Assembly (NCBI RefSeq): GCF_020382885.2
Contig: NC_058501.1
Span: forward strand, 8,680,001 to 8,744,000
Reading direction: 5' to 3'
Length of the DNA stretch: 64,000 nt
Source of the DNA: Scatophagus argus
Lineage: Eukaryota > Chordata > Actinopteri > Scatophagidae
The position numbers and the translations under genes are program-made. The notes beneath the pieces are model-generated. The model made no database searches. It was not told the origin of the DNA and saw only the letters and a program-made list of their open reading frames with translations. This document shows, in pieces, positions 40,601 through 43,600 of this stretch. Every line of letters starts with the position of its first letter. Within the stretch, counting starts at the first letter, position 1.

Positions 40601-43600
40601 TTACCTTGTACTTATCCCACATTAGCCATGCAGAATTTACCAAACAATTCTGACTTTGGAATGAAGCAGTTGCATAAAATATGTTTATGTGTTAAATTTA
40701 GCCACCTTTCTCGCAGATACAGTACATAACTGTGCTTTTGTTTTTGCAGAGTGCCCTGAAGAGTGTGAGGCGTGTGTGAGCAGTGAAAGATGTACGCGGT
40801 GCCGGCCAGGCCTGTACCAGCTCAATGGGAGGTGCCACCATGTCTGTCCAGAGGACTACGAGCCTAATGACAAACTCATGGAGTGCACGGCACAAGGTCA
40901 GTCCAGTGTGGAAAAAAAATACCCAAGATGCCAGTCCTGTTGGTGGGGGCCCACGGCACGTTTGTCGCTTGATGTGGAAAGGCTACAAGTGGCAAACAAG
41001 CTTAAAGTAGAGAGAGAAACCCAGTTTGGAACTTATAAACGTGAAATAGTTTCACACTAAAGCCTCTCAGCCTCACTTCTGTTTCTCTATTCAGTGCACT
41101 GCCAAGTGGGCGAGTGGAGCGAGTGGAGCCCCTGTTCTCGGTCTGGTAGAACCTGTGGGTTCAAGCGGGGCCAGGAGACCCGCACACGGCAGGTACTTCA
41201 GTACCCATCGCCCTTTGGCAGCCCCTGCCCCGAGATCTCAGAGATCAAAGAGTGCCTGGTGAAGAGGAGGAAATGTACAGGTAAAGAAAACAACAGTGAT
41301 ACTGTAGCAAATTTGCACAGTGTTGGTGTTTCATTTGTGTGTGTCAAATCCTGGCTCAAGATCCTTGGCTCCAGCAACTTTTAACAACAAACTTTTAAAA
41401 GTGGCCACATTCTATACATGGTCTATTGTAGATGCTGTTGACCCACCACACTCACTGCCAACAGCGAATTAGTGACACATGGCACGATTTCTACTCTATA
41501 TGAATTCCAGACCTTGCTGCTTCAGCATGTACAATCAGGGCTAGTCGTTCTTCCGCTCAGGACTATGACTGTTTACTCAGAGGATTGTCATTGTGGTTAG
41601 AGTGAGGACAGTGGGGGAACACACATGTGTGATGTTGCAATGGCTATGTTGTGTGTTTTCCCACGAGACCTCTTTGGATTTTTAAACAGAAAAACCGCTT
41701 TCTCTGCTCCCAGCAAACAAGGAATAGCGTGATGATTTCCAATGAAGAGAGTGAAAACTACTTTCAGACGGGCTCTTCTCCTTTTAAAACCCGGTGCTGT
41801 GGTGAATTTATGATCACTTTGTGTTATGTGTGTACTGTGTGTGTGTGGTTACTGAGCTGGTTGGTGGTTACGGCTGGTTGTTTTTTAGCCTGGGCTCTGT
41901 AGTGTTAAATGACAGATCGCAGACAGGGTAGGAGGCTGAGATCCAGCCCTCTGGGGCCTCACACTTACAGAGCAAACAGTGTGTGTGTATATGTGTGTGC
42001 ATGTGCGTGCGTGTGTGTGTGTTTCTGTGCATGTGTGTGTGTGTGATGCAGCAGAAAAGCAGCTCACTCCGGAGCAGAAACAGCCAGCTCAACATCAACA
42101 TCCTCCCCCTGGGAGGCACGCGGCGACCAGGGGATCAGTATTGGTTTATCCCCACAGCTGCCAACACACACACACACACACATATACATGCAAACCAACA
42201 CTTGCACACACATATTCAGATATAGATACACCCTCTTCACTTCAAAAAAGCCAGACAAATGCACACTTGGGCACAGCAAAGACACACAAACATCTTTGTC
42301 TCACTAAAATAATGTTGCTCCTGGTCATAATTTGTAAAGAGAGTCAGTGGGGTCACTGCGATTTGTAAGGCAGACTGTGAAATGTGCCCTCTGTCACCCC
42401 CACTATCGCACTCTCTCTCTCTCGCTTCTATCTGTATCTCTCTGCTGATCCATTCCCCCATCCTCATCCTCTCCACTCTCTCTCTCTCTCTCTCTCACAC
42501 ACACACACACACACACACACTCCCTACCAAACCAAAGAAAACATAGACCCCCATATAAGCTCCCTGTTGGCGTTCCCAGTCAGTCGGGTCGGGGCCGAGA
42601 TTTTAGTGTGGAGTCGACGGCTCTGTTGATCTAGCCTGAGCCTGTGTGTTTTTGTGTGTGTGGCAGGGGGTGGAGGGGGGGACAGTTGAATTTAGTCTTT
42701 CACATTATAGACCTCGTTTATCAACGTTGCCCCCACTTGTGATTACCCAGTTGCCCCTGCTCCAAGAGCATCTGCAGTGAATGAGAGCTAATTATCTGCT
42801 TTGGCGCATCCTCTCTTCGTTGTTTACGTTCTGCACACGCTAGGGGGTCAGTGGTCCGACCTCAGAGAGCCGCCAGTAATCCTCCAGCAGCCCTCAGACA
42901 TTGATACATCCTGCTCCTTTTGCACTTTCTCCTTTTGCATTCTCCTCTACTTCTGTCCTCTCACGTTTCCTCTTTACTACATTGTTTCACTCCTCCACGT
43001 TAGTCTTTGGCTATTCCATCCAATACTTTTCACTTTCTTCAATCCAAAAACCATCAAATTATTTTTTGTTGCTAATAGGAAAATTAAATTTAAACAAAGC
43101 CAGGTTAGCTTATTTCCACTGCTCATGGTCTTTGTGCTAAGAAGCAGTAATCCATTCCTGGCTTAAGTTTTAGTTTTTAATGCACAGATATGAGAGTGGT
43201 TTCAATCTTGTCATATAACTCTCAACGAGAAAGCACATTTCCAAAAATGTTGTATTTTTTCTTTGAGTATAGGCAGAAGCCTCCAGCTCTTACACAACCA
43301 TTAAGTTGGTTTTAACCCATGAATCCATGTTTTAAATTACAGATACTACGTCAGAACAGTTATAAAACTGAAAAGCACTGACCTATTCAAGCTTAGAGTC
43401 AGAAAGACTGACTGTTCCTCTGTTATCCACTGCTGGAGAATGTTTACACACATATCCTCATCCGCTATCATCTCTCTCAAGTTAATGCTGGCTAATTTGT
43501 CCTTCAATGGACCTGCTGTTCACCTCTCTATCTCTGTAGCCGGATAGACCATGTGACCTCTGCAAACCATTTGACTCCCACTCACACACACACACAGACA

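Follow-up and report, generated by a model that had tools for sequence, protein, structure and literature searches.

The rspo3 locus of the fish Scatophagus argus raises the question of whether its product, the Wnt-signalling protein R-spondin 3, carries a third furin-like repeat (FU3) and, if so, where this repeat came from and what it may do. We consider it about 95% probable that exon 4 of the gene is the FU3 exon of ray-finned-fish rspo3, i.e., a duplicate of the FU2 exon that is constitutively used and encodes a third module, probably a spacer or a surface for a partner.

Gene model and genomic neighbourhood

Within the window (the whole analysed stretch of 64,000 nucleotides), rspo3 was modelled on the + strand with six exons and a coding sequence of 996 nt including the stop. 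The reading frame has a single stop, located at the end of the 331 encoded amino acids, and all five introns are in phase 1. The exons are:

Exon 1: 34567..34666, + strand; start codon and N-terminal part with a hydrophobic stretch, phase 0-1
Exon 2: 39524..39718, + strand; FU1, with R69 and Q74
Exon 3: 40387..40530, + strand; FU2, with C-F-N-K-N-F-C, F108 and F112
Exon 4: 40750..40896, + strand; FU3, its eight cysteines in register with those of FU2; V156 and R160
Exon 5: 41095..41280, + strand; thrombospondin type 1 domain (TSP1_spondin, 42.2 bits, cut-off 41)
Exon 6: 47893..48116, + strand; basic C-terminal tail and stop

Judged by eye, the hydrophobic stretch of exon 1 is likely a signal peptide. 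For exon 6, three AGs within 47841-47960 keep the frame; the acceptor chosen is the first of these and, by eye, the only one that follows a pyrimidine-rich tract. Intron 2 harbours a dinucleotide repeat tract of about 95 bases, first TA, then TG (window 40049-40145).

Exon 4 was the subject of the initial annotation, which had placed there a 147-nt exon with AG/GT splice sites and phase 1-1; its coordinates, length and phase proved exact. The borders read tttttgcag/AGTGCC...CAAG/gtcagt, with the splice sites assessed by eye. The three furin repeats and the protein of 331 aa that had been proposed both hold in the six-exon sequence model.

The model belongs to the R-spondin family, putatively to its RSPO3 type; it combines Furin-like_2 repeats (PF15913; two stretches with 77 bits in all, cut-off 28, for a query without FU1) with a subsequent spondin-type TSP1 (PF19028). 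Downstream, two further features were found:

RING+WWE gene (rnf146-like): 52216-53616, + strand; domains matched
Enoyl-CoA-hydratase-like exon (echdc1-like): 56758-57171, - strand; 26.6 bits against a cut-off of 27

We take these to be rnf146-like and echdc1-like, respectively. The expected gene order is RSPO3-RNF146-ECHDC1, with which both neighbours agree.

Between rspo3 and the rnf146-like gene lies an uninterrupted malate-dehydrogenase-like frame of 337 aa (window 50063-51076, - strand; Pfam Ldh_1_N and Ldh_1_C), presumably mdh2 of the mitochondrial type. Since the frame is uninterrupted and vertebrate mdh2 is normally multi-exon, it could represent an intact retrocopy. Inspection of 49500-51500 by eye showed no evident poly-A tail.

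Exon 4 resembles the FU2 exon

On its own, FU3 scores 38 bits against Pfam Furin-like_2 (PF15913; E 2.1e-9), the cut-off (gathering score) being 28. The claim that exon 4 repeats the cysteine pattern of FU2 was borne out: 8/8 cysteines show identical spacing, and 19/46 residues are identical between the two repeats. Local alignment scores are 113 for FU2-FU3, 71 for FU1-FU2 and 39 for FU1-FU3. As a control, FU3 was shuffled by residue; none of 5000 shuffles reached 113 (best 62). We also ran phmmer with FU2 as query against the full set of 2226 stop-to-stop segments that the six frames of the window yield at a minimum length of 20 aa. Three segments were found at E <= 1, namely FU2 itself, FU3 (7.3e-8) and FU1 (0.0017). 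A derivation of FU3 from FU1 was rejected, given that the score of this pair is below that of the best shuffle and compares with 113 for FU2.

A PDB search with FU3 lists 14 sequences at E <= 1, of which 13 belong to R-spondin-1 or -2; the four alignments displayed match the second furin repeat strongly and the first one at about 7-8 bits. The R-spondin chains returned by the PDB searches are RSPO1 and RSPO2 only. A single-sequence fold of FU3, i.e., computed without an alignment, has a mean pLDDT of 71.2 and a pTM of 0.42. Using this model in Foldseek, the best 30 of 45 matches are R-spondin entries, with E-values of 0.016 or worse. Confidence in the predicted fold is intermediate, and it contributes little to what the sequence already shows.

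In sequence, exon 4 lies nearer to the exon of FU2 than to FU1, and it shares the phase and the eight cysteines with the former. The FU3 exon would have arisen by tandem exon duplication of FU2. We found no leftover similarity between introns 3 and 4 of rspo3, while introns 2 and 3 share only matches of 9-10 bases. Given these intron comparisons, we infer the duplication from the coding part alone. Here, FU2 and FU3 have 33/46 bases in common at codon position 1, 27/46 at position 2 and 14/46 at position 3. This much stronger drift at third positions fits an old duplicate that is held by selection on the protein.

Splicing and receptor contacts of FU3

If the above reading is correct, exon 4 would be constitutively spliced in. 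Skipping it would leave the frame intact (147 nt, phase 1-1), so exon-skipped transcripts are compatible with the sequence. Exon 4 might therefore be an alternatively spliced cassette, such that Rspo3 is made with two as well as with three repeats; teleost RSPO3 entries of both kinds are listed in a 2025 survey (PMC12111769), and some of these could be isoforms or gene-model errors. We regard this as quite unlikely, since both exon ends show consensus-like splice sites (by eye) and the medaka, zebrafish and tongue-sole papers give six-exon FU3 genes and, in the sections available, mention no skipped form.

Next, we considered the residues known for receptor binding. In human RSPO3, ZNRF3/RNF43 is contacted by R67/Q72 and LGR by F106/F110 (PMC7239654); PMC12111769 numbers the former R66/Q71 and the latter equally F106/F110. 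The fish protein has R69 and Q74 in FU1 and F108 and F112 in FU2, i.e., each of the human RSPO3 numbers of PMC7239654 plus 2, where the FU1 contact columns were matched to human RSPO3 by us. While FU2 reads C-F-N-K-N-F-C, FU3 reads C-V-S-S-E-R-C, such that V156 and R160 replace both phenylalanines. The phenylalanine pair that characterizes an LGR-binding furin repeat is thus found in FU2 and is missing from FU3.

As an FU2-like module, FU3 could in principle act as a second LGR-binding site and raise avidity. With V and R at both phenylalanine columns, this is improbable: the substitutions F105R/F109A were introduced into RSPO2 to eliminate LGR binding (PMC7435267), and in RSPO3 the pair F106E/F110E weakens such binding (PMC7239654). 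Judging from these columns, FU3 is unlikely to provide LGR with another binding site. A limited search of the literature, as far as the sources were accessible, returned no mention of V/R at the LGR-contact columns of FU3, which does not prove that the observation is unpublished.

The third and weakest alternative, a non-functional relic exon that is open by chance and unused, is hardly credible, because all eight cysteines are retained, the codon positions have drifted unequally, the shuffle and segment controls reject a chance frame, and the corresponding domain is present in cloned medaka, zebrafish and tongue-sole sequences (PMC3542121, PMC4053527, PMC6073468).

We thus favour FU3 as a constitutive duplicate of FU2. 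It would add a further cysteine-rich beta-hairpin module, the third, that separates the FU1-FU2 head from the TSP1/basic tail. Binding of ZNRF3/RNF43 would remain with FU1 and that of LGR4/5/6 with FU2, while FU3 would most likely be a spacer, or a surface contacted by some other partner, and not a second LGR site. The longer reach between head and tail that the initial annotation proposed would be a hypothetical consequence. A more specific proposal is tentative and put at well below even odds: FU3, which gar also has, may have lost the LGR contact after the duplication and been retained for over 300 million years as a dedicated spacer or new surface that alters the bridging of ZNRF3/RNF43, LGR and heparan sulphate by fish Rspo3.

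Functional data from other fish

Published functional data are mixed. In zebrafish embryos, human RSPO3, which lacks FU3, was inhibitory in a similar way, and its authors consider a role for the three-FU structure not supported (PMC4053527). The 2025 survey nonetheless describes a correlation between the 3FU structure and enhanced Wnt inhibition in zebrafish (PMC12111769). In the tongue-sole study, each domain was deleted, including FU3 (PMC6073468). The FU3-deleted mRNA no longer significantly lowered boz or sp5l, but for sp5l the difference between deleted and wild-type mRNA was not significant. Some effect of FU3 is therefore possible.

Published record and comparison with known systems

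The third furin repeat of fish Rspo3 is already known and was published in 2012 and 2014. According to the 2012 medaka paper, rspo3 has six exons in both medaka and zebrafish, and exon 4 holds an extra furin-like domain, FU3 (PMC3542121). FU3 is reported for zebrafish, medaka, fugu, stickleback and spotted gar (PMC4053527) as well as tongue sole (PMC6073468), and as absent from elephant shark, mammals, birds, reptiles and amphibians (PMC4053527, PMC6073468). Cloned sequences with FU3 comprise a medaka cDNA (PMC3542121), zebrafish cDNA and RACE products (PMC4053527) and a tongue-sole ORF (PMC6073468). The absence of the repeat from the human protein, as stated in the initial annotation, agrees with PMC4053527, and its question of how widely fish share the repeat has a published answer, i.e., presence across several ray-finned fish (PMC4053527, PMC6073468).

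The sources differ in detail. A tree of 35 species shows three repeats in every ray-finned fish ortholog (PMC6073468). This conflicts with the 2025 survey of RSPO genes in 430 proteomes, which finds two repeats in the early-branching ray-finned E. calabaricus, the added repeat in gar and a mixture of two or three in teleosts (PMC12111769). In tongue sole, FU3 occurs in no RSPO other than Rspo3 (PMC6073468), and the 2025 survey names 3FU subgroups RSPO2/3 (PMC12111769). The phylogenetic range given here is that of the papers.

The locus adds one more genome in which the published domain gain of ray-finned fish is confirmed, a result of modest importance. It also calls for caution when zebrafish or medaka Rspo3 is used as a model of human RSPO3, since the proteins differ.

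With Rspo3 of other ray-finned fish, the gene shares the extra exon between FU2 and TSP1, where a separate exon codes for an FU2-like repeat, and the total of six exons. Protein lengths are 328 aa in medaka (PMC3542121), 330 aa in tongue sole (PMC6073468) and 331 aa here. FU3 is closest to FU2 in tongue sole (PMC6073468) as it is here, and no difference was found between published fish FU3 and the present one when compared by published description. Human and mouse RSPO3 show the same order of FU1, FU2, TSP1 and basic tail, but have two furin repeats and five exons, without the FU3 exon (PMC4053527).
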